A stretch of 64,000 nucleotides of DNA, taken from assembly GCF_000427645.1 (NCBI RefSeq), contig NZ_KE386571.1, positions 62,001 through 126,000 on the forward strand, in the 5' to 3' direction. Under the pieces are notes generated by a model that worked only from the letters and a program-made list of their open reading frames with translations, did not search any database and was not told where the DNA came from. The translations under genes were made by a program, and so were the position numbers. This stretch comes from Sphingomonas phyllosphaerae FA2 (GTDB lineage: Bacteria; Pseudomonadota; Alphaproteobacteria; Sphingomonadales; Sphingomonadaceae). Below are positions 2,137 to 29,909 of this stretch, one piece after another. Numbering within the stretch: position 1 is the first letter of the stretch; each line of letters starts with the position of its first letter.

Positions 2137-3546
2137 TCAGAACGATGACCAGTCTTCCTGCGCGGTCGGCCGCAGCGCGGTTACCCGCGGCGCCGAGCGC
2201 ACCACCTCGAGCCTGGAACGCGGCCCGCCGCCAGCACGACGTTGCTGGGCCGACCGGTGGTCGCCCTTATCGGCAAGCGTGAACCGTGCGACTTCCGTTG
2301 CCAGATCCTGCGCCTCCGAAGCCAGTGTGCGCGTCGCCGCGGTCGCCTCTTCCACCATCGCCGCATTCTGCTGCGTCACGCCGTCCATCTCCGAGATGGC
2401 GGAATTGACCTGCTGGAGACCGATCGCCTGCTGCTCAGCCGAGGCGGCGATCGTCGAGACGATCGTGTTGATCTCCTCGACACGCCCGATGATCCCGCGC
2501 AACGCCGATCCCGTGGCGCTCACCAGCTCGACCCCGGCCTCGACCTGCACGGTGGAGGCGGCGATGCGCGCCTTGACGTCCTTGGCCGCATCCGCCGAGC
2601 GCTGTGCAAGCGCGCGCACCTCGGAAGCGACCACCGCGAAACCCTTGCCGGCGTCCCCGGCGCGCGCCGCCTCGACGCCGGCATTGAGTGCCAGCAAGTT
2701 GGTCTGGAAGGCGATCCCGTCGATGACGCTGATGATCTCACCGATCTCGACCGACGTGCGCTCGATCCCGTCCATCGCGGTCACGGCGCGGTCGACGATC
2801 TCGCCGGACGAATGCGCCTCGCTGCGTGCCTGCAGCACCAGCGCGCTGGCCTTGTTCGCGCCCTCGGCTGTCTGGCGGACCGTGGCCGTGATTTCATCCA
2901 TCGCCGCGGCGGTTTCCTCGAGCGCCGCCGCCTGCTGCTCGGTCCGACGCGATAGATCGTCTGACGCGGCGCGGATGTCAGCGCTCCCGCTGTTGATGCC
3001 GTCCGCAACCACCGACACATTGTTCAGCGTCGAAGCCATAGCCGTCATGGCGGCGTTGAAGTCGTGGCGGACGGTTTCGAACTGCCCCGCCAGCGGCGCC
3101 TTTATCTCCAGCGTCAGGTCGCCCGACGCCATCCGCCCGAGCCCGGAGCCCAGCGCCTCGACCATCGCGTGCGAGTCCGCGGTGGCGCGCCGGATTGTCT
3201 CGGCATTGTCGCGAAAGACCCGCATTGCCCGACTCATCCGCCCAACGCAGTCGCGATGGTCGGCGAACAGGATGGCGGCGTCGAGATCGCCCGCTGCTAG
3301 CGCTTCCATCCGTACCACGGTCGTGACGTAGGGGTCGCTGATCAGCTTGCCGCTGTACCAGGTGAGCAAGACCGGTAGCGAGGCCAAAACCGAGCCGCCC
3401 AGCATGATGCTCCACACCTCGGCCGCCGGCGACATCGCCGCCATGTAGATCAGGCTCAGGCTCAGCGCCGCGACCAGGATCTGGAAAGCCACAACCACGC
3501 GAAATTTGATGCGGATCGGGGCATTGTTTCGGAACCAGGAAATCAT
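2137..3546 (-). CDS. Methyl-accepting chemotaxis protein, short N-terminus
   Basis: The 469-residue chemoreceptor starts with two hydrophobic segments (about residues 16-36 and 44-63). There is almost no periplasmic loop, so it should sense a membrane or cytoplasmic signal rather than an external ligand. HAMP-like regions follow (about 65-190). The signalling domain carries the conserved hairpin tip around [20 protein letters not shown]. The C-terminus is a flexible arginine-rich tail ending in DWSSF, which fits the xWxxF tether used to dock CheR/CheB. Its neighbour downstream is a globin, so an oxygen, redox or NO cue is a reasonable guess. No chemotaxis core genes are nearby. Confidence 0.93.
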
Positions 3547-3992
3547 CTTCGTACTCCTACCGGCCGGCAGAACTAGCGAAGCTCAATAAATTTCCATTGG
3601 CGAAAGTCATTTGCGACGATCTGTATGATCGAAAACACTTGGTTAAGTTCGCGCAGTTATTTCTAGCTCTATTTAACCATAAAATATCGCTGAAGTGCGT
3701 TAGATGCTGAGGAGCGTGATCGCGAAAGGCAATTTATTATTAAGGGTAAAGAAGGCGTGTCCTTTGTAGATCGGATGAAAAATCCTCCGATTGTTAAAGT
3801 CCTGTTAAATCACTTCAATATCTGTGGAGCTATAAGGAAAGGCACAGTTTCGCGTTCTGCTCGTGAGCATCTGAAGCCAGCAGGAGCACCTTTAGCGGGC
3901 ATACCGCTGGTTAAGGTTCGTCCGGCCATGTTTCGCGCCAGGGGAGGGCGGGGCGGTACGCGCTCCCCCCCGAAGGTTTTATGACGAGCCGG
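3547..3992. other. AT-rich intergenic region
   Basis: About 450 bases between the chemoreceptor start and the response-regulator stop. It is clearly richer in A+T than its surroundings, especially 3580-3760, which suits a promoter region for the chemoreceptor on the minus strand. A small hairpin (AGCGG GCATA CCGCT, 3896-3910) is present. A 75-codon plus-strand frame at 3757-3984 shows no protein-like features. I see no RNA gene. Confidence 0.6.
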
Positions 3993-4403
3993 TCAAGTTG
4001 CCGGCGCTTCTGCCTCGGCGATCGGGCGCTCCATCAATCGTCGCATCGCATCCACGATTTCAAAGCGGTCAATTGGCTTGGGATAGAATTCCGCGCGCTC
4101 CGGGAGCGACACGCTTTCGCGGGTGAAGTACGCGGCGGTCAGGATGATCTCGATGGGTGGCCAGCGCTTTCTGATCGCCGCAGCAATCTCGATCCCCTTG
4201 CGACTGCGCGGCATGTCGAGGTCCATGTAAACCAGACGAATATCCAGCCGCTCCTCCAGCAGCGTGACCGCATCGGCGCTGCTCATCGCTTCCACCGCTT
4301 CGAAGCCGGCATCCTCGACCATGCTGATCGCATCGATCCTCAAGATCGGCTCGTCTTCGACGATCAGCACCGGCCATCGTTTAAGGGGTTGAGACTGTCC
4401 CAT
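3993..4403 (-). CDS. Single-domain response regulator
   Basis: A 136-residue receiver domain with no output domain. The acidic pocket is in IVEDEP, the phosphoacceptor is Asp61 in VYMDLDMP, the switch Thr/Ser is in ILTAAY and the conserved Lys is in YPKPID. It follows the HWE kinase gene by 13 bases in the same direction, so it is its likely partner. Stand-alone receivers next to HWE kinases in alphaproteobacteria act as phosphate relays or sinks, or bind partner proteins; the target here is unknown. The protein starts at the ATG at 4403. Confidence 0.9.
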   Translation of the reverse strand: MGQSQPLKRWPVLIVEDEPILRIDAISMVEDAGFEAVEAMSSADAVTLLEERLDIRLVYMDLDMPRSRKGIEIAAAIRKRWPPIEIILTAAYFTRESVSLPERAEFYPKPIDRFEIVDAMRRLMERPIAEAEAPAT

Positions 4404-4416
4404 GCTTGTCTACGCG

Positions 4417-5520
4417 TTACGCCTCTTGCACCTGATACAGCGGTGCAGTTGCCTCTACGGTCAAACCTTCCGGTCCATAGGAAAGCGTAACGCCCCCGGA
4501 GCCGGTTAGTCCCATGCGGATCAGGCGCGAGCCAAACCCCTTGCGCGCCGGCTCGATCGCTGGCGGTCCGCCGCGCTCCGACCAGCTCAGACACAGCATG
4601 TCCTTGTCTCCATCGCCTGTAACGGTCCACGACACCGCCACCTTGCCATCAGGTGCCGTGAGCGCGCCGTATTTGGCGGCGTTGGTGGCCAGTTCATGCA
4701 GCATCAGCGACAACGACAAGGTGGCCCTCGGACCGATAATCACGTCGGGCCCGGACAGTACGAAGCGATCTTCGCCGAAGGTCGCCAAAGCCCCCTTTGC
4801 GACGTCGCCCAGGCCCGCGCTGGACCATTGATCCCGCGTCAGCACGTCGTGCGCTGCGGCAAGAGCAGTCAACCGCTTCCCGAACGAGCGAACGGCTTCT
4901 TGATCCTCAACCTTGTTCAACGTCTGTTGCGCGAGCGCCTGCACCACGCTCAGCGTGTTTTTGATGCGGTGGGCCAGTTCCTCGTTGAGGAGAAGCTGCT
5001 GTGCGTTTGCGACGTCGCGATCGCGCTTTGCTACGACTTCGGAGGTGGTTTCTGTGACGACGAGGAAGATTCCTGCGACCCGGCCGTCCACATCCCAGAT
5101 CGGACTATGTGAATGCGTAAAGAACGCCTCTTTCGGCACGCCGTCGCGATCCGGCGTGTAACGCCCGTTTTCGACAAACACCGTCTTTCCGGCGAGCACC
5201 TGATCGAAGACCGGCGTCAGCTGGTTCCACATCTCCGACCACCACGCGCGTGCCGGCTGTCCCATATGCCCGGGATGCTTGCGGCCGAGACTCGGCGCAT
5301 AGGCGTCATTGTAAAAGGTGAAGAGCTCCGGGCCCCAATGCACCATCATCGGAAACCCGGAGGCGAGCACGATCTGGACCGCCGTTTTCAGCGGTGCCGG
5401 CCAGCGGATCGGATCGCCTAGCGGGTGATCGGTCCAATCGATCGCTCGCAAGGTTTCGGCGCAACCGCCGCCGACTGCCGGAAACGGGTGATGTGGGTCG
5501 CTGAGGGCGGGATCGGTCAC
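4417..5520 (-). CDS. PAS-domain HWE-family sensor histidine kinase
   Basis: The 367-residue soluble kinase has a PAS-like sensor (about residues 45-165) followed by an HWE kinase core. The phosphorylated His184 is in ELAHRIKNTLSVVQAL. The N box is HELATNAAKYGAL, and the family-defining Trp-x-Glu appears in WSERGGPPA. HWE kinases are common in Rhizobiales and Sphingomonadales and often have light- or stress-sensing PAS domains. The PAS domain here lacks the cysteine motif of LOV photosensors as far as I can see. There is no transmembrane segment, so the signal is cytoplasmic. The response regulator lies immediately downstream. Confidence 0.92.
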   Translation of the reverse strand: MTDPALSDPHHPFPAVGGGCAETLRAIDWTDHPLGDPIRWPAPLKTAVQIVLASGFPMMVHWGPELFTFYNDAYAPSLGRKHPGHMGQPARAWWSEMWNQLTPVFDQVLAGKTVFVENGRYTPDRDGVPKEAFFTHSHSPIWDVDGRVAGIFLVVTETTSEVVAKRDRDVANAQQLLLNEELAHRIKNTLSVVQALAQQTLNKVEDQEAVRSFGKRLTALAAAHDVLTRDQWSSAGLGDVAKGALATFGEDRFVLSGPDVIIGPRATLSLSLMLHELATNAAKYGALTAPDGKVAVSWTVTGDGDKDMLCLSWSERGGPPAIEPARKGFGSRLIRMGLTGSGGVTLSYGPEGLTVEATAPLYQVQEA

Positions 5521-17328: not shown

Positions 17329-18717
17329 TCATGCCGCGCGCGCCGCGTTCATGCGCGCGATCGTCGCGTGGTTGAGGATCAGCCGGCTGATCGTGACGGC
17401 GAGCAGCAGGTGCATCGCCGCCGGCACCAGCGTCGACAGGGCGCGGATGCCGGTCAGCGACAACGGCGTCTGGTTGTTCGCGCCGGCCTTGTAGGAGACG
17501 AGCACCAGCACCGCGCTGATCAGCGCCCCCGCGACCGCCCACGCCAGCTTCACGAAGAACTGATTGAACGCGAAGCTCATGCCCGACGAGCGCATCCCCA
17601 GCTTCCACTCGCCATATTGGTCGGCCAGCTGGATCAGCGTGAAATGCAGCGGCAAGGTGCAGCCCAGCACGATGCAGCACAGCCCGACCAGCACCAGCCA
17701 CAGGGTCGGATAGTCGCCCGGCACGAAGAAGGCGGCGACATGCCCGACGACGAGGATCAGATTGACCCAGATATAGATCGTCCGCACGTCATGGCGGCGC
17801 GTGAAGAAGGTGACGACGATCGAGCCGATGAACCCGCCGATCGTCGCGATGCCGAAGAAGAACGCCTGATAGGTCGTCCCGCCGTTCAGCACATAGGTGA
17901 TGAAATACAGCGCCGCGCCACCCTTGGTGTTGAAGATCGCGATCAGCAGCAGCGTCATCGCGAAGGTAATGCGCAACTGGTCGTTCTTCAGCGTATTGGC
18001 GATCGCGACGCGCAGCGGCGGCTCCTCGATGGCCGCGAAGGTGACGCGCTCGCGCACGAACAGGAAGCAGATCAGGAACATCGCCACCGCGGCGAGGCTC
18101 AGGAGCGCCACGCCGTCGCGATAGCCGCGCGCGACATCGCCCGCGCCGAGCGCGCGCACCATGATCGGCAGCCCGACCGAGACGGTGAACGAGGCGATCG
18201 CCACCATCGCGAACCGCACCGACTGGCAGGCGACGCCTTCCTCGGCGCTGTCGGTCATCCGCGTCACCAGCGCGCAAAAGGGGACGTTGTTGAGCGAATA
18301 GGAGAAGGCGAGCAGGAAATAGGTGATCGCGGCATAGGCGACCTTGCCGTCCTGCCCGAGATCGGGCGACTGGAAGGTCAGGAAACAGCTCAGCCCGACC
18401 GGGATCGCGGTCCACAACAGATAGGGGCGGAACTGCCCCCAACGCGTCTTCGTGCGGTCGGCCATGATCCCGATCAGCGGATCGGAGATCGCGTCGAAGA
18501 TGCGCAGCGACAGGAACAGGATACCGACCACGCCCGGCGCGATCCCGAACACGTCGGTGTAATAGAAGGTCAGGAAATTGGCGATCAGCCCGGTGATGAT
18601 CGTGCCCCCGGCGTCGCCGAAGCCGTAGGCGACCTTCTCGCCGAAGGGCACGCGCGCGGCCGGGGCCGGGGCGGGGTGGACCGGCGCGGCGTCGCCCTGT
18701 TGCGCGATCGTCGTCAT
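17329..18717 (-). CDS. GPH-family (MelB/XynB-like) sugar:cation symporter
   Basis: The 462-residue integral membrane protein has about twelve hydrophobic helices. The glycoside-pentoside-hexuronide signature near the N-terminus reads SLRIFDAISDPLIGIMADRT, followed by TRWGQFRPYLLW. This family imports small glycosides such as xylobiose, isoprimeverose or melibiose with Na+ or H+. The ATG at 18717 overlaps the GH31 stop (ATGA), so the two are coupled. A longer frame to 19110 is an artefact of the overlapping GH31 gene. Together with cytoplasmic GH31, this implies that intact alpha-linked oligosaccharides are taken in and cut inside the cell. Confidence 0.92.
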   Translation of the reverse strand: MTTIAQQGDAAPVHPAPAPAARVPFGEKVAYGFGDAGGTIITGLIANFLTFYYTDVFGIAPGVVGILFLSLRIFDAISDPLIGIMADRTKTRWGQFRPYLLWTAIPVGLSCFLTFQSPDLGQDGKVAYAAITYFLLAFSYSLNNVPFCALVTRMTDSAEEGVACQSVRFAMVAIASFTVSVGLPIMVRALGAGDVARGYRDGVALLSLAAVAMFLICFLFVRERVTFAAIEEPPLRVAIANTLKNDQLRITFAMTLLLIAIFNTKGGAALYFITYVLNGGTTYQAFFFGIATIGGFIGSIVVTFFTRRHDVRTIYIWVNLILVVGHVAAFFVPGDYPTLWLVLVGLCCIVLGCTLPLHFTLIQLADQYGEWKLGMRSSGMSFAFNQFFVKLAWAVAGALISAVLVLVSYKAGANNQTPLSLTGIRALSTLVPAAMHLLLAVTISRLILNHATIARMNAARAA

Positions 18718-20762
18718 GCCTCGGAGTCCATGAACGCCCCCGCGACGCGTGCGCCGGCGCGGACGAAGACCGGCAGCCGGTCGCGCGGCGCGGCGCAGCG
18801 AACCGTCGCGTTGCCCGCCACTTCCGCCCCGGTCCACGCATCGATCCACGCGCCCGCCGGCAGCCACACGTCGCGCGCGTCGACGCCCGCCGCGGTGACC
18901 GGCGCGACCAGCAGGTCGGGGCCGAACATATATTGGTCGTCGACTTGCCAGCTGCGCGGCTGCTCGGGATAGTCGTAGAACATCGGCCGCATCGGCGGGT
19001 CGCCCGCTTCGTGCGCGGTGCGCATCAGCCCGGCGACATACGGCCGTAGCCGCTCGCGCAGGCCGGCGTAGCGGCGCAGGATCGCGAACACCTCGTCGCC
19101 GAAGCTCCACAATTCGTTGCCCGCGCCGGTGTCACATTGCGCGACCCCGTCGCGGAACGGCTCGGCGGGTGGGGTGATCGGGTCGCGATGCCCGTGCATC
19201 CGCAGCACCGGGGTGAACACCGCCCATTGGAACCAGCGGATCATCAGCTCGTGAAACGCCGGATCGTCGACATCGCCGCCGTGGAAGCCGCCGATGTCGG
19301 TCGTCCACCACGGGATGCCCGCCATCGCCATGTTCAGCCCGGCGCTCAGCTGGTTGCGCATCGCGGTGAACGAGCTGTGGATGTCCCCCGACCAGATCAG
19401 CGCTCCGTACCGCTGGCTCCCCGCCCACGCGCAGCGCACCAGGCTGACGCTTTCGGTCGCGCCCTCGGCCGTCAGCCCGTCGTGGAGCGCCTGCGCATAA
19501 TAGAGCGGATAGGCATTGCCGACCGCCAGCACCTCGCCGGCATGATAGCGATAATTGTCGAAGTCATACGCGCCATATTCTGGCTCGGCCTCGTCGAGCC
19601 AGAACAAGGTCACGCCCTTGTCGTGGTAGTTGCGCTTTAGCGTCTGCCACAGGAAGTCGCGCGCGCCGGGATGCGTGACGTCGAGGAAGCGCGTGTTGCC
19701 GAGGAACTCCTGCTGCACGTCGATGCCGCGATTGGCGCGCACCAGATAGCCGCGCTCGGCGAGCGCCGGGTAATTTTCCGAGCGCGGATCGACGGTCGGC
19801 CACACCGACACCATCAGCGCGGTGCCCATCGCCGCCAGCTCGGCGCACATCGCGGCGGGGTCGGGCCATTCGCGCACATCGAACCGCCAGTCGCCCTGCA
19901 CCGGCCAGTGGAAAAAGTCGGCGACGATCACCGCCAGCGGGATGCCGCGGTCGCGATAGGCGCGCGCCACCGCCAGCAGCTCGTCCTGCGTGCGGTAACG
20001 CAGCTTGCTCTGCCACAGCCCCAGCGCATAATCGGGCATCATCGGCGCGGTGCCGGTGACCTGCGCATAATTGCGCACGATCTGTGCAGGCGCGTCGGCG
20101 GCGGTGATCCAGTAATCGATCTCGTGCGCGGCGCGCGCGGTCCAGACCGCGCCATTGGCGGCGAAACACGCCTCGCCGACCGCCGGGCTGTTCCACAACA
20201 TGCCATAGCCGTGGCTCGACACGACGAACGGCACGCTCGCCTGCGAATTGCGCTGCGCCAGTTCCAGCACGCAGCCGGCGAGGTCGAGGTTGGGCTGCTG
20301 ATATTGACCCATGCCGTACAGCCGCTCGCCCGGCCGGGCCTCGAACCGCACTGTGATCCGCGCCGCGCCGCCGGGCAACGGGCGGAACTCGCGGCCTGCC
20401 AGACCCAATGCGCTGATCGTGTCGACCGTGTCGCTGCCGATTGTCCAGAATTTGGTGACCGTATCGCGCTGCCGCCACTTCTCCTCGAGCAGAACGCGCC
20501 CGCGATTGTCCAGAAAGCGCACGCGCCCCTGTAAATCCAGCTCCGCCGTGATCCCGCCGTTGCGGATATGCGCCACCGAACCGACCCGTCCGACGAGCGC
20601 GGCGATCGGATCGATGTCGAGCAACGCGCCCGGCGCGGCGGGGCGGGGGGCATAGGTCGAGGCGCGCAGCCGCAATCCGCTGGGGCCATGCGCCTCGATC
20701 CGCACCCAATCGCCATCATAGGCCCAGGCAATCGCGCGCTCTTCAAGCGTCAGCGTATCCAC
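18714..20762 (-). CDS. GH31 alpha-xylosidase/alpha-glucosidase
   Basis: The 682-residue enzyme belongs to glycoside hydrolase family 31. The catalytic nucleophile is Asp390 in FWLDEAEPEYG and the acid/base is Asp460 in IWSGDIHSSF. The LDEAEPE form resembles alpha-xylosidases more than starch-type alpha-glucosidases. No signal peptide follows the chosen start, so it is cytoplasmic. I start at GTG 20762, which has GGAGAGGAAG about nine bases upstream; the longer frame would run through the operator and promoter. It is the first gene of the operon and would remove alpha-linked xylose (or glucose) from imported oligosaccharides. Xyloglucan fragments are a plausible substrate, but this is inference. 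Confidence 0.88.
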   Translation of the reverse strand: MDTLTLEERAIAWAYDGDWVRIEAHGPSGLRLRASTYAPRPAAPGALLDIDPIAALVGRVGSVAHIRNGGITAELDLQGRVRFLDNRGRVLLEEKWRQRDTVTKFWTIGSDTVDTISALGLAGREFRPLPGGAARITVRFEARPGERLYGMGQYQQPNLDLAGCVLELAQRNSQASVPFVVSSHGYGMLWNSPAVGEACFAANGAVWTARAAHEIDYWITAADAPAQIVRNYAQVTGTAPMMPDYALGLWQSKLRYRTQDELLAVARAYRDRGIPLAVIVADFFHWPVQGDWRFDVREWPDPAAMCAELAAMGTALMVSVWPTVDPRSENYPALAERGYLVRANRGIDVQQEFLGNTRFLDVTHPGARDFLWQTLKRNYHDKGVTLFWLDEAEPEYGAYDFDNYRYHAGEVLAVGNAYPLYYAQALHDGLTAEGATESVSLVRCAWAGSQRYGALIWSGDIHSSFTAMRNQLSAGLNMAMAGIPWWTTDIGGFHGGDVDDPAFHELMIRWFQWAVFTPVLRMHGHRDPITPPAEPFRDGVAQCDTGAGNELWSFGDEVFAILRRYAGLRERLRPYVAGLMRTAHEAGDPPMRPMFYDYPEQPRSWQVDDQYMFGPDLLVAPVTAAGVDARDVWLPAGAWIDAWTGAEVAGNATVRCAAPRDRLPVFVRAGARVAGAFMDSEA

Positions 20763-20796
20763 GCTTTTCTTCCTCTCCCCGCCCGGCAATTCCGAA

Positions 20797-20842
20797 CCGT
20801 AAACGTTTTCGGACTTGTGCAATCCGGGTGGTGGTCTGTCAA
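20797..20842 (-). promoter_or_regulatory. GH31 operon promoter with LacI-type operator
   Basis: CCGTAAACGTTTTCGG (20797-20812) is a near-perfect palindrome with the central CG of LacI/GalR-family operators. On the minus strand TTGACA (20842-20837) fits a -35 box, with a weak -10 around 20819-20814. That places the operator at the transcription start and about 35 bases before the GTG of GH31. The divergent gene at 20883 encodes a LacI-family protein, the obvious ligand-responsive repressor. The -10 is poor, so the promoter call is weaker than the operator call. Confidence 0.75.
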
Positions 20843-20882
20843 CACCCTTGCGCTGTGGACGTGCGGCAGCGATCAGGCGCGA

Positions 20883-21914
20883 ATGGACATTCGTGCGCTT
20901 GCCAGCCATCTGGGCCTGTCGATCGGCACTGTGTCGCGCGCCTTGAACGATCGTAAGGATGTCAGTCCCTTAACCCGGCAACGCGTGCTGGAGGCCGCAT
21001 CGGCGCTCGGCTACACGCCCAACCAGTCCGGCCGGACGCTGCGGATCGGCCGGACCGCGACGATCGGTTTTATGCTGACGCTGGAACACGATAGCGCGGT
21101 GCACGGCGATCCCTTCTTCATGGCGCTGCTCGAAGGCGTGCAGGCCGGCCTGGTGGAACACGGCCTCGACCTGGTCATCCTGCTGGCGCGCAAGGGCGAG
21201 GACGGTGAGACCTTCCTTCGCCGCCACATCGCGCGCGGCACCGTTGACGGCTGGCTGCTGTCCGGTACGCAATATGAGGATGCCCGGATCAAGTTGCTGT
21301 CGGAGCGTCGCATTCCCTTCGTCGCGCTCGGGCGTACCGCATCGATCGCCGATTATCCGTGGATCGATCTCGACTTCGAAGGTGTCGTTGCGGAGGCAAT
21401 GGCCTTGCTGCTCGCAGACGGGCACCGTCGCATCGGCTTGGTGACACCGCCGGCGACGATCAACAACAGCCACATCGTCGTCGCCGAATATCGCGCCGCG
21501 CTCGTCCGGGCCGGGCTTGCGGCGGATGAGGCATTGATTCACCGTGGCGACACCGACGAACATGACGGTGAGGCCGCGACGCGTGAGCTGATGGCTTTAG
21601 AGCAGCCGCCGTCGGCATTGTTGCTAATGGGCGAAACAGCTCCGGTGGGGGCGTATCGAGCGCTCCGCGACAAGGGTCGTGAGCCAGGACGAGATATCGC
21701 GGTGATTGGCCTGCGTAATAACCCCATGTGCCAAGCCCTGTCACCCGAGCTGACGTGCTTCACGCTTGATCTAAACGCCTTAGGTCTAGCTCTTGCGGGT
21801 AAATTAGTGTCGATAGTAGAAGATGAGGTCGGCTATGTCGAAGCAATCCAATCTCGTTGGCCCCTGAATATTCTTCTTCGGGAGAGCCACAAAGGAGGTC
21901 TGCCAAAAGAATAA
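20883..21914 (+). CDS. LacI-family transcriptional regulator
   Basis: The 343-residue protein opens with a LacI helix-turn-helix (MDIRALASHLGLSIGTVSRA) and hinge (LGYTPNQSGRTLRIGRT). A periplasmic-binding-protein-like sugar domain follows, with GFMLTLEHDSAV and AVIGLRNNPM. I start at ATG 20883, because the HTH begins there; upstream codons lie in the operator region. It is transcribed away from the GH31 operon across a palindromic operator and should repress that operon, and perhaps itself, until an inducer sugar binds. The gene's 3' end is followed within about 110 bases by IS6 debris. Confidence 0.94.
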   Translation: MDIRALASHLGLSIGTVSRALNDRKDVSPLTRQRVLEAASALGYTPNQSGRTLRIGRTATIGFMLTLEHDSAVHGDPFFMALLEGVQAGLVEHGLDLVILLARKGEDGETFLRRHIARGTVDGWLLSGTQYEDARIKLLSERRIPFVALGRTASIADYPWIDLDFEGVVAEAMALLLADGHRRIGLVTPPATINNSHIVVAEYRAALVRAGLAADEALIHRGDTDEHDGEAATRELMALEQPPSALLLMGETAPVGAYRALRDKGREPGRDIAVIGLRNNPMCQALSPELTCFTLDLNALGLALAGKLVSIVEDEVGYVEAIQSRWPLNILLRESHKGGLPKE

Positions 21915-22021
21915 GTTGAGCGTAGCTTGGTAATGCATAAGAAGTGGCTTCTGTATAAATAATCTTCGCCACTTTATCTTGTTTTTACCATCCGCTGATG
22001 GAATTATTGGTCGTTCATGAG

Positions 22022-22326
22022 CCATGCCGAGAAGCAGGAGGTAGGCCGCTGGGCGAACAACGGGGTGGAGAACAGTCACTTGCCGTTCCGACGAAGGGGG
22101 CGGGCAATGTTGCGGTTCTGGCAGATGAATACGCTGCAGAAGTTCGCATCTATCCACGCCAACGTCCACAATCACTTCAGCCTGGAACGCCACCTCATCG
22201 ACCGACAAAACTACCGTGAACGACGCTCAGCTGCACTGGCGGAGTGGCAGGCGCTTGTCAGCTGAACGTCGCCGTCAAAAGGCCGATTTGCATCGACTGG
22301 AGAGCGGTTCGCATTAGACTGACAGC
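22022..22326 (+). pseudogene. IS6 transposase remnant, 3' part with right end
   Basis: The sequence matches the last third of the transposase at 246-962. It encodes AEKQEVGRWANNGVENSHLP and continues to AALAEWQALVS, then the GCATTAGACTGACA right end. The first two thirds, including two of the three catalytic acids, are missing. Numerous base changes relative to the intact copy show that this is an old, separate insertion rather than a recent duplicate. Confidence 0.85.
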
Positions 22327-22411
22327 ACCGCCACTACCTTGCCAAACGATATTTGGTCGCCGAGGATTAGGCGGGGGGCACCGCCCAGCTAAATGCACCG
22401 GCTGGAGATCG

Positions 22412-22703
22412 GTTGATGGTGGGGCGGGGCGTGCCTGCGCACGTCAGCCTCGCCGTTCCTCTACTTCAGTCGTCGTCAGTGATCAGGCTGGGGCTGCTAA
22501 TATACGTGTGCTTGCCGCTGAGCCTACGGAACGTCGAGGACCTGCTATTCGAGCTCAGCATCGACATCTGGCATGAGACGCTGTGGTTGTGGTGGAGCAG
22601 GTTCGGCCTACTGTTTGCCGGAGACATTCGCCGGCAGCGGGTGAGCCGGATACGCGACCTTTGTCACTGGCGCTGGCACTTGGATGATATGTACGTAGAG
22701 CAG
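22412..22703 (+). pseudogene. IS6 transposase remnant, 5' part
   Basis: This fragment matches the first ~90 codons of the IS6 transposase: LPLSLRNVEDLLFE, LFAGDIRRQRVSRI and HWRWHLDDMYV are recognisable. It then breaks off into AT-rich unrelated DNA at about 22703. It lacks the rest of the catalytic core. It follows the 3' remnant in the same orientation, so the order is tail then head. That fits the junction of two direct IS6 copies, each cut by later deletions. Confidence 0.82.
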
Positions 22704-23532
22704 GTGCGCTGGCATAATATGGGATCAGCAAAGGAAGAATTTTTCTGATCTCCAAACGCCCTATATCGCAAGATCTGGCGGAAAACTTCTCCTTCGGTCG
22801 GGTGTGAGTTCGACGGGGAATGGTTATTTGGGTATGATGAGACAAACACCATCTTTGATATATTTTGCCAAGGCCTTAAAGTTGTAATATTTAAATATAT
22901 TTATTCTCATACGCTTTAAATATTATTTAGCCCGGCTTCATTGGTGCCGTTGATGGATTTAGTTTGTTTGCAGAAGGTAGCTATTCCGTCATGGATGACG
23001 TGACCTTCTCCCACCGCGGCAGTGCCAGAGTCTGCAACTTGGGCCCTGATGATCCTCGGCTTCGGCGGGGTGGGTTATTCCATACGTCGTCGCCAAAAGG
23101 CTGCTGTGGGCTTCGCCTGACCTCATACAAAAGTCCGTGGAAGCGATCCTGTGGTTTACGCCAAGATTTGCCGGCAGGGCGATTACTCCGGCCGGAGCTG
23201 GGCCACCCCGAATGACTCCGCTTCCCCTGCGCGCAGCCCTTTGACGCCTTGCTCACCCCGGGGAGCACGCCAGCAGCGCGTGATCGTCGAGGATGCCACC
23301 AGCGTGAGGTTGATGATGAGCGGATGTACCTCCGCGCGCGCAGCTTGCGTCCGTTGCCGCCGAATGGGGATGATTTTGACTCTTGAGGTTGATCTACTTC
23401 GGCGAGAAATGCCGCCGAGCATCTCACAGATGTTCACCCACGGCACGCAGGTGACCACTTTAGATTAGGCCAGAAATCTGTCACGATCCTGTAAGTGAAC
23501 CGGCGTCGGGGTCGCGAGGGGGCGATTGGCGG
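22704..23532. other. Gene-poor region with AT-rich segment
   Basis: About 830 bases without a recognisable gene. 22840-22960 is strongly AT-rich with ATATTTAAATATATTTAT-like runs, unlike the rest of the window. 23000-23460 is GC-rich, and both strands have open frames of 80-150 codons. Their compositions (Arg/Ser/Pro-rich, no known motif) look like decayed or non-coding DNA. Lying between IS6 debris and a kinase gene, it is probably a remnant of past insertions and includes the promoter of the kinase near its right end. Confidence 0.5.
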
Positions 23533-25068
23533 ATGAATTTTCTGGACCAATTAGAGACTTTCATGCCGCATGGTATGTGCCTTTTATGGCGTCCGGAGTT
23601 GATGATCCTCCACATTGGCTCTGATGCGCTTATCGCACTGGCCTATTTCGCCATTCCTTTCGGCATTGCACAATTTGTGAATGCCAGGGTTGACCTGGAT
23701 CAAGGTCACCGGCGTCTGGCTTTGCTGTTCGCTGCGTTCATCGGCCTTTGCGGCATAACTCACGTCGCCAGCATATTCGTCCTCTGGTACCCGTTCTACG
23801 TGACCGAGGGCTGGCTGAAGGCAGCGACCGCTGTCGCCTCCGTTGCGACGGCGATATTTGCGCTATCGCTTGTTCCGAAACTGCTCCTCCTGCCGTCCGC
23901 AAAAGCCTTGCAAAGGGAAATCGACGATCACCAGGCGACGCTGCGGGAGTTGCAGGCTGCTCGGGCCGCGCTCGCGCGGCGCGTGGATATGACCGAGAGC
24001 GAGTTGCGACGCGTCGAGGCAAACTACGAGACATCGGACAAGCTTCTCAGGTCCGTCGTGGAAACGGTACCCGGCGCGATCTACGCCAAGGATGAAGCAG
24101 GTCGAATGATCCTTGCGAACAAGAGCACGCTCAATTTCCTCGGCTTGTCGTGGGAAGCTGTCGTTGGAAAGAGGGATGACGAATTCATCGACGATGCCGA
24201 ACAGGCTGAGGCGATCATCGCCAATGACAGGTTGGTCTTGAGCGGCGGTGGCATCCGGGAAATGGAAGAGAGCATCACGCTTCCCGACGGCGGAACGCGG
24301 ACCTTTTGGTCGACCAAATATCCGATGCGGGACGACGCCGGTCGGGCAATTGGCATCGTCGGTGTCTCCGTCGACATCACGGACCGGAAGAAGGAAGAGA
24401 GTGACGCCCGTGCGTCGATCGAACGTGCGTTGGCGGAAAAGGTCGCTGCGCTGGAGCAGCGGGACATTCTCATCAGGGAAGTCTATCATCGTGTGAAAAA
24501 CAACTTGCAGATTATCGACAGCTTCCTGGTGCTGCAAAGCAGGTCGTTATCGGATCAGCGTGCCAAAGACGGGCTGAGAAGCCTACGTGATCGGGTATAT
24601 GCCTTGGGGCTCGTACATCACCAACTTATGGCGACGGCCGATTTTGCGACGTTCGATCTGTCGTCGTTCTTAAGTGAACTCGTCGAAAATCTCGCTGAGG
24701 GGTCTGGCTCTAGCGAAATCGCGCTTTCGGTCAGTGCCGATCCACTCACAGTGGGGCTGGACTTCGCCATACCGTTCGGTCTGTTGGTGACCGAACTTGT
24801 CACGAATGCCATCAAGCACGCATTCCCTGCGGGTTCCGGCACAATCCACGTTCAGGTGAATAACATCGGAGAGGATGAAGTCATGCTTCTCGTGAAGGAT
24901 GATGGGTGTGGGACCACTGCATCGGTGACAGGCGAACCTTCAACAGGCGGTGGGCTTGGCAAGAACATCATCACCAGCATGGCGCGTCAGCTTCGGGGCA
25001 ACGTGACCTACAGCTGTGACGACGGAACTCGTGTGGAGGTGCGGGTGAAGGGGCCGTGTCGGAAATGA
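23533..25068 (+). CDS. Ethylene-receptor-like membrane histidine kinase (EBD-PAS-HisKA_2)
   Basis: This 511-residue kinase has three N-terminal hydrophobic helices (about 26-48, 62-84, 94-118). They resemble the ethylene-binding domain of plant ETR1 and cyanobacterial SynEtr1. Aligning SDALIALAYFAIP and FIGLCGITH with the plant sequence puts Asp31, Tyr38, Ile41, Pro42, Ile70, Cys73 and His77 at the positions of ETR1 Asp25, Tyr32, Ile35, Pro36, Ile62, Cys65 and His69. Cys and His are the copper ligands. A coiled coil, a PAS domain (172-285) and a HisKA_2 core follow (His319 in YHRVKNNLQIIDSF; N box TELVTNAIKHAF). The response regulator gene overlaps its stop. Binding of ethylene or another small ligand is inferred from the residues only. 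Confidence 0.88.
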   Translation: MNFLDQLETFMPHGMCLLWRPELMILHIGSDALIALAYFAIPFGIAQFVNARVDLDQGHRRLALLFAAFIGLCGITHVASIFVLWYPFYVTEGWLKAATAVASVATAIFALSLVPKLLLLPSAKALQREIDDHQATLRELQAARAALARRVDMTESELRRVEANYETSDKLLRSVVETVPGAIYAKDEAGRMILANKSTLNFLGLSWEAVVGKRDDEFIDDAEQAEAIIANDRLVLSGGGIREMEESITLPDGGTRTFWSTKYPMRDDAGRAIGIVGVSVDITDRKKEESDARASIERALAEKVAALEQRDILIREVYHRVKNNLQIIDSFLVLQSRSLSDQRAKDGLRSLRDRVYALGLVHHQLMATADFATFDLSSFLSELVENLAEGSGSSEIALSVSADPLTVGLDFAIPFGLLVTELVTNAIKHAFPAGSGTIHVQVNNIGEDEVMLLVKDDGCGTTASVTGEPSTGGGLGKNIITSMARQLRGNVTYSCDDGTRVEVRVKGPCRK

Positions 25069-25439
25069 GCGATCTTTCGGATTATGTCCTGATCGTGGAC
25101 GATGAAGAGATGATCGCGATGGCCTTCAAGTACCAGATCGAGGATCTCGGGTATGCGGTGTGCGGAACGGCGGCCTCCGCGGATGAGGCCGTCGCTATGG
25201 CGTGCCTGCACCGGCCCAAGGTCGTGTTGATGGACATGCGTTTGCGGGGCGAGAAAGATGGCGTGGATGCGTCGTTAGACATTCACGAACGGGTCGGATC
25301 GCGCGTGATCTTCGTGACCGGCTCCAAGGAGCCCGCGACAGTGACGCGCATTCAGCTCGACCACCCCCGCGCTATCCTGTTCAAACCGGTGTCGTATCGG
25401 AAGCTCGAAAGCGCGATTCAGGAGGCGATGCTGGACTGA
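25065..25439 (+). CDS. Single-domain response regulator, partner of ethylene-receptor-like kinase
   Basis: A 124-residue CheY-like receiver with Asp-Asp pocket LIVDDEE, phosphoacceptor Asp57 in VLMDMRLRG, Thr in FVTGSK and Lys in LFKPVS. The RLRGEKDG loop resembles receivers paired with HisKA_2/HWE kinases. The ATG at 25065 overlaps the kinase stop (ATGA); a GTG at 25056 is an alternative with a closer AAGG. No DNA-binding domain follows, so the output must be a protein partner or a further relay. Coupled translation makes the pairing with the kinase very likely. Confidence 0.92.
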   Translation: MSDLSDYVLIVDDEEMIAMAFKYQIEDLGYAVCGTAASADEAVAMACLHRPKVVLMDMRLRGEKDGVDASLDIHERVGSRVIFVTGSKEPATVTRIQLDHPRAILFKPVSYRKLESAIQEAMLD

Positions 25440-25857
25440 TCTCGTCGAGGCGTATGGACATCGCGTGGCTGTGTCGGGGCTGCGACATGGCGCGGATTGA
25501 CGGGGCGACGACCTTACATGGGCGTCGGAACCACGCCCCCGCTGAGTGGCCGCGCTTGACCAGTCCCGCCACGAGGCAGCCATGCGTGAAGTGGCTTTCG
25601 CTGGCACCGTTAGTCAAATGCACCAGCGTTTAATCCAGGGCGGGATTAAGGCAGGTGAATTTAAGCTCGTCGAGCATTCTTGATGATCGGTCGTCGGCTG
25701 GCGTAGACGCGCTCCACCTTGATCGGTCGGCAGCCTGCCCACGGCACGCTCGTGATCTGACAGGGTTGAAACGCCGGAACCGCTTGCCTGTTCGGATTGC
25801 CATGCAATGGCGGCAAGGCGGTGGTTCCTGGTTCAAGAGAGACGGAATCCAGCCGCA
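25440..25857. other. Intergenic region before rlmJ
   Basis: About 420 bases with no convincing gene, RNA or strong hairpin. A 60-codon plus-strand frame (25453-25635) contains CRGC but no other protein-like signature and has no ribosome binding site. The rlmJ promoter is presumably in the right part. Confidence 0.5.
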
Positions 25858-26688
25858 GTGAATTATCGCCATTCCTTCCACGCTGGTAATAGTGCCGATG
25901 TGGTCAAGCACAGTCTCCTCATAGAGCTTGTACGCGCTTTGCAACAAAAGCCGGGAGCGCTGACCCTGATCGACACGCATGCCGGTTGCGGGCTGTACGA
26001 TCTTGGCGGGGAAGATGCTCGACGTACCGGCGAAGCGCTGCAGGGCGTCTTGCGAACCTTTGAAGACGCCAACCCGCTGCTAGACGATTATCGTGCGGCG
26101 GTGCGGGCGGTGAATGTTTCGTCCGAACCACACCTATATCCCGGCTCGCCACGGATCCTGGCGCAACTCGTTCGCCCGCAGGATTTTTTGATCCTGAACG
26201 AAAAACATCCGGAGGATGCCGACACGCTGCGCCGGGCGATGCGCGACACCTCCGCTGCCGTGCACGAGCGCGACGCGTATGAATTCTGGCGAGCGATGGT
26301 GCCGCCGCGCACGGCGCGCGGTGTAGTGATCGTCGACCCGCCCTATGAGCAGACCGACGAACGCGCCCGCATCACTGCGACCCTCGCGGCGGCTTACCCC
26401 AAATGGTCGCACGGCGTGACGGTGATCTGGTATCCGCTGAAGGACCGTAGCCTCCACTGGCGGTGGAAGGAGCAATTGCGCTCGCTCGGCATCCGCAAGT
26501 TCCTGAACGTCGAGCATTGGCTGTACGACGTCGACCAGCCGGGCATCTACAACGGCGCGGGCCTGTTCATCATCAACCCGCCCTATGCCTTCACGCAGGC
26601 GCTGCCGCCGATGCTGGAGGTGCTCCGCGCCGTCCTTGCGCCCGAGGGGCATCGCGGTGCGATTACGGCGGACTGGCTGACCGGGTGA
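25858..26688 (+). CDS. rlmJ: 23S rRNA (adenine-2030-N6)-methyltransferase RlmJ
   Basis: The 276-residue protein (family usual length about 280) starts NYRHSFHAGNSADVVKH, the hallmark of RlmJ. It has the SAM-binding LIDTHAGCGLYDL and the N6-adenine methyltransferase catalytic motif DPPY in VIVDPPYEQ. It modifies A2030 of 23S rRNA. I chose GTG 25858, because homologous sequence begins immediately after it; the upstream in-frame ATG at 25807 would add unrelated residues. It is monocistronic and unrelated to its neighbours. Confidence 0.95.
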   Translation: MNYRHSFHAGNSADVVKHSLLIELVRALQQKPGALTLIDTHAGCGLYDLGGEDARRTGEALQGVLRTFEDANPLLDDYRAAVRAVNVSSEPHLYPGSPRILAQLVRPQDFLILNEKHPEDADTLRRAMRDTSAAVHERDAYEFWRAMVPPRTARGVVIVDPPYEQTDERARITATLAAAYPKWSHGVTVIWYPLKDRSLHWRWKEQLRSLGIRKFLNVEHWLYDVDQPGIYNGAGLFIINPPYAFTQALPPMLEVLRAVLAPEGHRGAITADWLTG

Positions 26689-27009: not shown

Positions 27010-27053
27010 GGCTAGGTTAGCTGCGACACGGCAGCGACTTGAGGAGGGGGTAT

Positions 27054-29909
27054 ATGCGGAAGCTGGAAGCGCGTTGGTTGGTCGGTGCATCGATGGTGGC
27101 GATCGCCGTCTTCGGATCGAGTGGCATGGCCGGTGCGCAGGTGAGCGCAACGCCGGCGATGCTGGCCGGCGGCGTCGGGGCCGGGCAGGGTGGCACTGCT
27201 GACCAGTCCACTGGCGCGTTGAACGCCTCGCAAGTCGCGCAACAGGATCAGAACGAGCAGGACATCGTGGTCACCGGCGTCCGGGAGTCGCTGCGCTCGG
27301 CACAGGCGCTGAAGCGCAACGCCAGCCAGATCCTCGACTCGGTACAGGCGACGGACATCGGCAAGCTGCCCGACGCCAACACCACCGAGGCGCTGCAACG
27401 CATCACCGGTGTGCAGATCCAGCGGCGCTATGGCGAGGGGGCGACCGACTTCGATCACCGCACGTCGCCGGCGATCACCGTCCGCGGGCTTACCCAGGTC
27501 CAGAACTTCCTCGATGGCCGCGCGGTCTATTCGGCATCGGGCGGTCGCGCCTTCGATCTGGAAGGCATCCCGCCCGAGCTGCTCGCCGGGATCGACGTCT
27601 ACAAGAACGCGCCCGCCAACATCATCGAGGGCGGCGTCGGCGCGGCGGTGAACCTGCGCACGCGGCTGCCGTTCGACCAGCCCGGCCAGACGATCAGCGG
27701 CACCGTCCGCGGCAATTACTACGACCGGGTCGACAAGTTCGGCTATTCGGCGTCGGGGCTCTACAGCAACCGCTTCGACACCGGGATCGGCGAGATCGGC
27801 ATCCTCGCCAATGCGGTCTATTCGACGAGCGCCTATCGCCAGGACGGCATTCTCGCCAACCCGCAGAACCCGATCCCGGCCGGATCGATCGCCGGCGCGC
27901 CCGCCAATGCCCGGGCGCCAATGGGGATGCAGGTCTATGACGATCTGGGCGATCGTCGCCGGCTGGGCATCGCTGCCGCGGTCCAATGGCAGGCGGCGGA
28001 CAATCTGCTGGTCACCGGCCAGTATCAGCTCGCCAAATATTGGTTCAACCGCCGCGGCGCTTATTACTACACCGTCAACGGCGGATCGCAATCCAACCCG
28101 CTGCCCAGCTCGACCTTCACGTTCAACAAGGACGGCTATGCGACGTCGGGGGCGCTGCAGCAGCAGAATTTCGAGACCGGGCGCTTCGACCAGCAATTGT
28201 GGAGCCAGAGCCAGAACTTCACGCTCGGCGCCGATTGGCAGGCGACCGACCGCGCCAAGGTCCATTTCGACGTCCAGTATCTGAAGAGCTATTACAACGC
28301 CGATCGCAACGGCCACGTCCTGACGCTGTTCACCGCCGCAGGCCAGAACACGCCGACCGGATCGCCGCACCCGTCGATCATCGACTTCGACCTGCGCGGC
28401 AGCCGCCCGCGGTGGGACGTGCGCGACAAGGCTTTGCTGACGAACCCCGCCAATTACGCGACGCCGTTCATCGCCGACGCGTTGCAACGCAACGACGCCG
28501 ATACGCTCGCGCTCGCCTATGACATCGAATATGATCTCGAGGGCGGCTTCCTGCAGAAGCTGCGCGGCGGCGCGCGCTATTCTGACAATTCGATTGATCT
28601 GCGCGGTACGTGGAACGGCGTCTGCCTCTACGCTACCGGCCCCGATCCGTCCTGCTCGGCGAAGGACGGCACCGCGCTGATCCCGCTCAGCCGCAATCCG
28701 GAGCTGGCGATGTCGGCGCCGTCCCCGAACTTCTTCGACGGCAAGAGCGTCACCGGCGGGCTGCTGTATCCGGCGCTGCCCGGCGGCGGCGGCGTGACCG
28801 GCGACGTCTGGAAGCAGACCAAGGCGCTGTACGCGCTGTTCGGCGCCAAGACCAAGGACGCCTTCACCCCCGGCGATCTCAACGCGCAGACCGAAAAGAC
28901 CTACACCGTCTGGGGGTCGACCGATTATGCGTTCGAGGCGGGCAGCATCCGCTTCGACGGCAATGCGGGCGTACGGCTGGTCAAGACCGACCTCACCTCG
29001 TTCGGGACGCAATTCAATTCGGACGGCACCACCTCGCCGCTGGCGGTCGCCAAGAGCTACACCCGCGCATTGCCCAGCGTGAACCTGCGCGCGCGGATCA
29101 CCGAGGAGTTCCAGATGCGCTTCGCCTATTCAAAGGGGCTGGCGCGACCGAACTTCGATCAACTGTCGACCAATCTCACGCTCAACAACGCCAATCAGGT
29201 CAATCCGATCACCGGTCGCCCGAGTGCCAGCTCCGGCAATCCGCGGCTCAACCCGATCGAATCCAACAATTTCGACCTGACCGCCGAATGGTATTTCGCG
29301 CCGGCCGGGTCGGTGACCGGTGGTCTGTTCTACAAGAAGGTCGACGGATTCCTGGCCAGCGGTACGCTGGTCCAGACCTTCCAGGGCCGCGCCTATGACG
29401 TCAGCACCGTGCTCAATTCGGGCAAGGGCACCGTCAAGGGCGCCGAGATCGGCTATCAGCAGTTCCTCGACTTCCTGCCCGGTCTGTTCAGCGGCTTCGG
29501 GGTGCAGGCCAATTACACCTATGTCGACTCGAACGTCACGAATCCGTTCGCGGCCGCCGGCTCCGGTCAGTCGGCGCAGCTGCCGCTCGAGAAATTGTCG
29601 AAGCACAATTACAATTTGATCGGGCTGTACGAGAAGGGGCCGCTGACCGCGCGGCTCGCCTATAATTGGCGGTCGAGCTACCTCGACCAGACGTTCGGCG
29701 CGGGCACCAACCAGCCGCAATATGCCAAGCCCTATGCGTCGCTCGACGCATCGGTGAGCGTCAACCTCAACACCCATGTCGCGATCTCGGCGGATGCGGT
29801 GAACCTGACCAATCGCATGAACGTCACGTACATCGGCACGATCGGTCAGCCGCTGCAATATCAGCTCAACGATCGCCGCTTCGGCCTGTCGCTACGCGCG
29901 ACCTATTGA
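27054..29909 (+). CDS. TonB-dependent outer-membrane receptor
   Basis: The 951-residue receptor has a signal peptide (LVGASMVAIAVFGSSGMAGA), an N-terminal IVVTGVRESLRSAQALK TonB box/plug start, and a plug with DANTTEALQRITGVQIQRR and AITVRGLTQVQNF. A 22-strand-type barrel ends in RFGLSLRATY. It belongs to the sphingomonad/Caulobacter carbohydrate-import group. The start is fixed by AGGAGG seven bases before the ATG at 27054; an upstream TTG lies within that site. It precedes DUF6445 and a flavin halogenase, a combination seen repeatedly in sphingomonads, Caulobacter and Xanthomonas. Confidence 0.95.
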   Translation: MRKLEARWLVGASMVAIAVFGSSGMAGAQVSATPAMLAGGVGAGQGGTADQSTGALNASQVAQQDQNEQDIVVTGVRESLRSAQALKRNASQILDSVQATDIGKLPDANTTEALQRITGVQIQRRYGEGATDFDHRTSPAITVRGLTQVQNFLDGRAVYSASGGRAFDLEGIPPELLAGIDVYKNAPANIIEGGVGAAVNLRTRLPFDQPGQTISGTVRGNYYDRVDKFGYSASGLYSNRFDTGIGEIGILANAVYSTSAYRQDGILANPQNPIPAGSIAGAPANARAPMGMQVYDDLGDRRRLGIAAAVQWQAADNLLVTGQYQLAKYWFNRRGAYYYTVNGGSQSNPLPSSTFTFNKDGYATSGALQQQNFETGRFDQQLWSQSQNFTLGADWQATDRAKVHFDVQYLKSYYNADRNGHVLTLFTAAGQNTPTGSPHPSIIDFDLRGSRPRWDVRDKALLTNPANYATPFIADALQRNDADTLALAYDIEYDLEGGFLQKLRGGARYSDNSIDLRGTWNGVCLYATGPDPSCSAKDGTALIPLSRNPELAMSAPSPNFFDGKSVTGGLLYPALPGGGGVTGDVWKQTKALYALFGAKTKDAFTPGDLNAQTEKTYTVWGSTDYAFEAGSIRFDGNAGVRLVKTDLTSFGTQFNSDGTTSPLAVAKSYTRALPSVNLRARITEEFQMRFAYSKGLARPNFDQLSTNLTLNNANQVNPITGRPSASSGNPRLNPIESNNFDLTAEWYFAPAGSVTGGLFYKKVDGFLASGTLVQTFQGRAYDVSTVLNSGKGTVKGAEIGYQQFLDFLPGLFSGFGVQANYTYVDSNVTNPFAAAGSGQSAQLPLEKLSKHNYNLIGLYEKGPLTARLAYNWRSSYLDQTFGAGTNQPQYAKPYASLDASVSVNLNTHVAISADAVNLTNRMNVTYIGTIGQPLQYQLNDRRFGLSLRATY

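Follow-up and report, generated by a model that had tools for sequence, protein, structure and literature searches.

In the window, a stretch of 64,000 nucleotides from the genome of Sphingomonas phyllosphaerae FA2, a gene for a sensor histidine kinase whose N-terminus resembles that of the plant ethylene receptor ETR1 is followed by an overlapping gene for a receiver protein (Table 1). The question raised by this locus is whether such a pair may serve as an ethylene receptor and, if so, which output it may control. Before the study of Azospirillum brasilense, the only microbes with a proven receptor-mediated ethylene response were Synechocystis and one fungus, and the pathway downstream of the A. 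brasilense receptor AzoEtr1 is called unknown (PMC11819568). Our analysis indicates that the pair is probably a copper-dependent ethylene receptor organised as a two-gene two-component system with phosphotransfer to its own receiver.

Table 1. Features of the locus and its neighbours, numbered from the first letter of the window.
Feature	Position	Strand	Remarks
Ethylene-receptor-type sensor histidine kinase	23533..25068	+	511 aa; ORF, Pfam and model
ETR1_N-coding DNA	23599..23886	+	residues 23-118; D31, Y38, I41, P42, I70, C73, H77, K96
Single-domain response regulator	25065..25439	+	124 aa; phosphoacceptor Asp57; Response_reg 5e-17
Glycosyl hydrolase 31	18714-20909	-	neighbour, domain scan
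LacI-type regulator	20874-21914	+	neighbour, domain scan
RlmJ	25858-26688	+	neighbour, domain scan
TonB-dependent receptor	27039-29909	+	neighbour, domain scan

The putative ethylene-binding domain

The initial annotation, made from the letters of the DNA, had proposed an ethylene-binding domain (EBD) at the kinase N-terminus and had suggested a profile comparison. In Pfam the kinase matches ETR1_N (PF25487) with an E value of 5.7e-29 and a score of 100.7 bits, the cut-off being 27, which is far beyond chance, and it is the sole ETR1_N match in the 3.92-Mb genome. The seven residues assigned to the ethylene site (Table 1) do stand at the positions proposed for them, in register with those of AzoEtr1 of A. 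brasilense Sp7 (DYIPICH in both proteins; DNA from plasmid ABSP7_p1, NZ_CP012915, frame 2980-4557 of our locus L032). Lys96 is also common to both, and 59 of 122 aligned EBD residues are identical. The counterpart of Tyr38 we take to be Tyr32 of Arabidopsis ETR1. The ETR1 residues Cys65, His69, Asp25, Ile35, Pro36 and Ile62 are named in PMC6586836.

In the family sample the complete set of seven is kept in 43 of the 47 other ETR1_N matches, the exceptions being L047, where Val replaces an Ile, both pieces of the broken gene L048 and the degenerate L049. The L048 gene comes from a genome (G007) that is 86% complete and 7% contaminated; its coding sequence is distributed over two overlapping frames, either because the gene is broken or through an assembly error. 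Within this sample the EBD of the window belongs to the more divergent ones, with 104.5 bits as against 142.9 for the highest score. Compared with all 11 aligned relatives it carries two additional residues in the loop that joins helices 1 and 2.

A full-length AlphaFold2 model built from seven sequences, of medium confidence (mean pLDDT 67.7, pTM 0.38), places three helices of fitting length at the N-terminus (21-51, 57-82 and 89-111), followed by a long helix (123-164). The helix order claimed in the initial annotation agrees with the model; of its downstream coiled coil only a long predicted helix is left, since the model is of medium confidence. The site residues mostly cluster on helix faces: on an ideal helical wheel Asp31, Tyr38 and Pro42 lie within 40 degrees and Ile70, Cys73 and His77 within 60, with Ile41 at the edge, 80 degrees away from Asp31. 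A sequence search of solved chains with the EBD gave no match at E values up to 10. Foldseek returned 1150 matches; the best 50, headed by LOV-kinases, comprise histidine kinases, phytochromes, NifL and similar proteins and are uninformative for the EBD.

In an EBD tree the window sequence stands on a long branch beside proteins that join ETR1_N to an HWE-type kinase, one branch having an SH-aLRT of 94. An HWE-type EBD may thus have been placed on a HisKA_2 core, which is only a lead because the tree rests on 96 columns and a quick method and has long branches.

The kinase core and the receiver

The kinase has the order ETR1_N (23-118), long helix (123-164), PAS (about 171-286, Pfam PAS_4), HisKA_2 (316-388, with HRVKNN) and HATPase_c (417-506). 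The histidine kinase part matches HisKA_2 at 5e-20 and HWE_HK at 4.1e-6 and carries the HRVKN motif at His319; HRVKNN, Asn425 and the DxG fall in invariant columns of the five HisKA_2 members of the family. With the PhyK model the core scores 145.9 bits, far under the 750-bit cut-off. The four-base overlap is real, because the receiver ATG at 25065 overlaps the kinase stop TGA (25066-25068) as ATGA; a GTG at 25056 is an alternative receiver start. The proposed combination of PAS, HisKA_2 kinase and overlapping receiver gene is thereby confirmed by the Pfam domains and the ATGA alike.

The receiver carries the acidic pair, the phosphoacceptor Asp, Thr85 and Lys107. The position three before the conserved Lys is that of the Y-T coupling aromatic of CheY, and an aromatic is absent there from the window receiver and from all 10 aligned relatives. 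In place of the PFxFATG(G/Y) (FATGUY) motif of SdrG and MrrA the receiver has VIFVTGS, and IF(I/V)TGS is found in nine of the 10 relatives, the tenth having TAS. MrrA likewise has no Y-T coupling residue and possesses the FATGUY motif (PMC5964349). Besides itself, the best match of the receiver in its own genome is PhyR (61.8 bits), to which it is identical at 42 of 117 positions (36%) as against 32 of 119 (27%) for AzoRR. The receiver profile also finds solved chains of PhyR type (4qic is so named) near the top of its matches; the first two, a diguanylate-cyclase receiver and a putative antiterminator, are not named PhyR. The PhyR of this genome, recognised by PhyR_sigma2 and PhyR_sigma-like, adjoins genes for NepR, a sigma factor and a HisKA_2 kinase, in a locus about 145 kb away from our pair.

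Kinase types joined to ETR1_N

The kinase types across the family were compared in an alignment of 46 proteins (the window kinase, AzoEtr1, one Kovacikia protein and 43 other family members), from which L048, L049 and L077 were omitted since the residue pattern missed them (L077 only for its long frame). At E values up to 0.001 HisKA was matched by 25 proteins, HWE_HK by 21 and HisKA_2 by six; all six HisKA_2 proteins match HWE_HK too, and the 15 others match HWE_HK above the cut-off and HisKA not at all. The 44 family proteins, window included, accordingly divide into 15 HWE, five HisKA_2 and 24 HisKA kinases, the last number being obtained by subtraction of AzoEtr1.

The 15 ETR1_N-HWE kinases (L035-L047, L078 and L079) are short, 381-475 aa, and give no PAS match. 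No relative of the window receiver lies near their genes in the stretches fetched, nor was a common neighbour found, the most widespread flanking frame matching two other loci; these kinases might feed the stress response as orphan inputs. Two of them, at 3142-4275 of L035 and 3136-4268 of L042, lie near what appear by eye to be genes of ribosomal proteins L11 and L1. We tentatively suggest, as a doubtful possibility, that alphaproteobacterial lineages of ETR1_N kinases have changed over to HWE/HisKA_2 cores, in one case together with a PhyR-like receiver, and that a gas sensor of the plant-hormone type would in this way supply the general stress response with input.

Distribution and origin of the pair

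ETR1_N is present in 46 of 397 genomes of the family and in 28 of 385 of the class sample, the window's own genome being counted in both, and in none of 10 other sampled genomes of the genus. The pairing of kinase and receiver is constant. Among 48 loci examined, some of which end early at contig ends, a close receiver relative (E values of 1.2e-40 to 1.8e-48) occurs at four only, L055, L058, L061 and L074, which are the four other HisKA_2 genes of the family; the next matches are in Kovacikia (2.2e-19), within hybrid kinases (8.5e-9 or weaker) and in separate receivers (1.2e-7 or weaker). When the receiver profile was run against the 397 genomes, with 11 of 22-51 candidates scored per genome among the matches listed, five strong matches (223-227 bits; next best 102) were obtained, and all five lie directly behind an ETR1_N-HisKA_2 kinase, in the window and the same four loci. 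Three weaker matches (94-102 bits) all belong to one other genus; in the one upstream frame inspected there, part of which is masked, no ETR1_N can be recognised by eye.

A search of genome contigs with the receiver alignment gave at least 80 loci, among the matches listed six at 58-66% identity and the next at 42%. Four of these six (two Caulobacter, one Phenylobacterium and one Nitrospirillum, two of the four records being metagenome-assembled) have an ETR1_N-PAS-HisKA_2 gene upstream with the seven residues kept. The highest identity over kinase core and receiver, 59%, is that to L080 (Caulobacter). PAS is not matched in L055, L058 and L074. In L081 (Phenylobacterium aquaticum, 2621-4480) ETR1_N scores 42.7 bits, the Asp is kept and the Tyr, Ile/Pro, Cys and His are lost, and a kinase and receiver of the window type are retained, so the module can persist without the ethylene site. 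In L083 (Rhodospirillaceae) a dCache-like region (25.5 bits, below the cut-off of 45) is found and no ETR1_N. The loss of the site in the one and the replacement of the sensor in the other imply that the core of kinase and receiver can be uncoupled from its ethylene-type input, and make these two loci natural controls.

No conserved third gene was found in 11 loci (frames of at least 110 aa, E values up to 1e-15); if other frames overlying the pair are set aside, only L055 and L058, which belong to one genus, have flanking genes in common. A tree of kinase core and receiver did not resolve the placement of the window, one of nine inner branches being starred and the outgroup very long. The GC content is 56.8% in the kinase gene and 59.7% in the receiver gene, as against 66.2% in the window, of which 22-26 kb is the GC-poorest part in 2-kb steps. 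The value falls to 47.6% at 22500-22999, just upstream of the receptor gene, which is possibly an acquired segment, and nine promoter-like sites occur in 22000-26000 where 1.6 are expected. Neither tree resolves the placement of the pair. Its transfer is likely but not proven.

Comparison with known ethylene receptors

The closest described system is AzoEtr1 with its receiver. AzoEtr1 consists of EBD, PAS and kinase in 525 aa, the gene of a 135-aa receiver overlaps its stop codon, and its residues 1-130 expressed in yeast bind ethylene saturably, disrupted strains binding little or none (PMC11819568). The window pair shares with AzoEtr1-AzoRR the ETR1_N domain, the same seven residues and Lys, PAS_4, a C-terminal kinase and the overlapping single-domain receiver gene, and at 511 aa its kinase is slightly shorter. 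As a kind, the system is already known: the layout is that of Azospirillum, for which layout and function have already been published, and its novelty is limited for this reason. The variant part is the output half, with HisKA_2 instead of the HisKA (PF00512) of AzoEtr1 and a receiver that by identity is nearer PhyR than AzoRR. Orthology of the whole systems was rejected on these two differences. The claim of the initial annotation that the output is different consequently stands for the kinase family and the receiver lineage and falls for the layout, and its list of precedents, plants and Synechocystis, was incomplete without AzoEtr1.

The HisKA_2 kinase with a closely related receiver directly behind it is shared with two Caulobacter, one Phenylobacterium and one Nitrospirillum pair and with four pairs of the family, compared to which, however, the EBD of the window is more divergent. 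Plant ETR1 and SynEtr1 of Synechocystis possess the same PF25487 domain. ETR1 contains a GAF domain (PMC6586836), whereas the window kinase gives no GAF match and has a PAS domain, a HisKA_2 kinase and a separate receiver; in plants the receptors pass their signal mainly to a Ser/Thr kinase, in the case of SynEtr1 it goes to the response regulator slr1213 (PMC11819568). Output domains of prokaryotic ethylene receptors are reported to range widely (PMC7700396). A literature search found, among the titles and abstracts listed, no ethylene receptor with an HWE/HisKA_2 kinase, which is weak evidence of novelty, and the available excerpts of two papers that mention both terms (PMC6944256, PMC10779265) describe none.

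Mode of action and alternative explanations

What the sequences show is the anatomy of the chain, with the sensor domain and its site residues, the motifs of kinase and receiver and the constant pairing of the two genes. For the copper and ethylene at the site, the direction of the effect and the target we take ETR1 and AzoEtr1 as models, and infer the following mechanism. The membrane domain would most likely form a dimer with Cu(I) at Cys73 and His77, where ethylene would be bound. Binding would alter the following helix and the PAS domain and hence the activity of the HisKA_2 kinase, which would phosphorylate the co-encoded receiver at Asp57. Because this receiver has no output domain, it probably relays the phosphoryl group or works through protein contact. 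By analogy with ETR1 and with the prediction for AzoEtr1, ethylene probably reduces the kinase activity; the inhibition of AzoEtr1 by ethylene is its authors' prediction (PMC11819568).

The output may be the general stress response, the kinase and the PhyR-like receiver exchanging phosphoryl groups with PhyT, PhyR, NepR and EcfG so that ethylene (or copper) tunes stress resistance. This alternative, which is compatible with the ethylene-receptor reading and specifies its output, we consider possible but rather doubtful. A link of this sort is plausible from the family of the kinase and the kinship of the receiver. In Sphingomonas melonis the HWE/HisKA_2 kinases termed Paks work in the stress response together with a single-domain receiver and phosphorylate SdrG and PhyR in vitro (PMC5898713), and the Caulobacter response likewise employs HWE/HisKA_2 kinases and a single-domain receiver (PMC5964349). 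Our pair resembles Paks, SdrG, MrrA and PhyR in its HWE/HisKA_2 kinase with HRxxN and in its PhyR-related receiver, which has no aromatic ahead of the conserved Lys. The score of the core with the PhyK model, although far under the cut-off, the best in-genome match of the receiver, the PhyR-type chains among its structural matches and the presence of a NepR-PhyR-sigma factor locus with a HisKA_2 kinase point in the same direction. However, in contrast to Paks, SdrG and MrrA, the window system has a membrane EBD, an adjacent dedicated receiver and no FATGUY motif; the seven Paks are cytoplasmic (PMC5898713), the phyR locus is distant, the two best structural matches of the receiver bear another name, and a dedicated receiver might equally insulate the system.

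The ETR1_N domain might instead sense copper or redox state, or another small gas or olefin. Cys and His form the putative copper site in ETR1 (PMC6586836), SynEtr1 is reported to be bifunctional for ethylene and light (PMC11819568), the EBD of the window is divergent and the four flanking genes scanned give no hint of plants or of ethylene signalling; yet all seven residues that ethylene binding requires are kept, not the Cys and His alone, and AzoEtr1 binds ethylene with the same set, which makes such a sensor unlikely. It is very improbable that the gene is a relic, transferred in and retained by chance with no response to ethylene. The low GC content of both genes, the GC-poorer upstream stretch without long genes, the lack of the domain in the 10 sampled congeners and the degenerate homologue L081 would fit such an origin, but both frames are open, the residues of catalysis and of the ethylene site have been preserved, and start and stop still overlap.

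We therefore retain the receptor-type sensor of the initial annotation, which agrees with the profile, the residues and the AzoEtr1 domain order. Its suggestion of a plant-proximity signal gained nothing from the genome, in which no ACC deaminase match was found, nor from shared flanking genes or the sampled congeners; none of this disproves it. The ACC deaminase control is without a true positive because none of the six control genomes out of 14 that gave a match exceeded the cut-off.

The pair joins an AzoEtr1-like sensor to the kinase family at work in the stress pathway of alphaproteobacteria, and this offers a concrete candidate output, testable with an EcfG reporter. If the link to the stress response is true, the pair would offer a route by which ethylene could tune stress resistance in soil and plant bacteria.

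Some minor observations complete the description of the region. A short open frame on the forward strand at 23004-23120, without the rest of a gene, ends in VPESATWALMILGFGGVGYSIRRRQKA..., which presumably resembles the C-terminus of a PEPxxWA-CTERM protein. A second HisKA_2-type match in the window lies at about 4828-4980 on the reverse strand (32.8 bits), and is one of nine such matches in the genome, eight of them above the cut-off.
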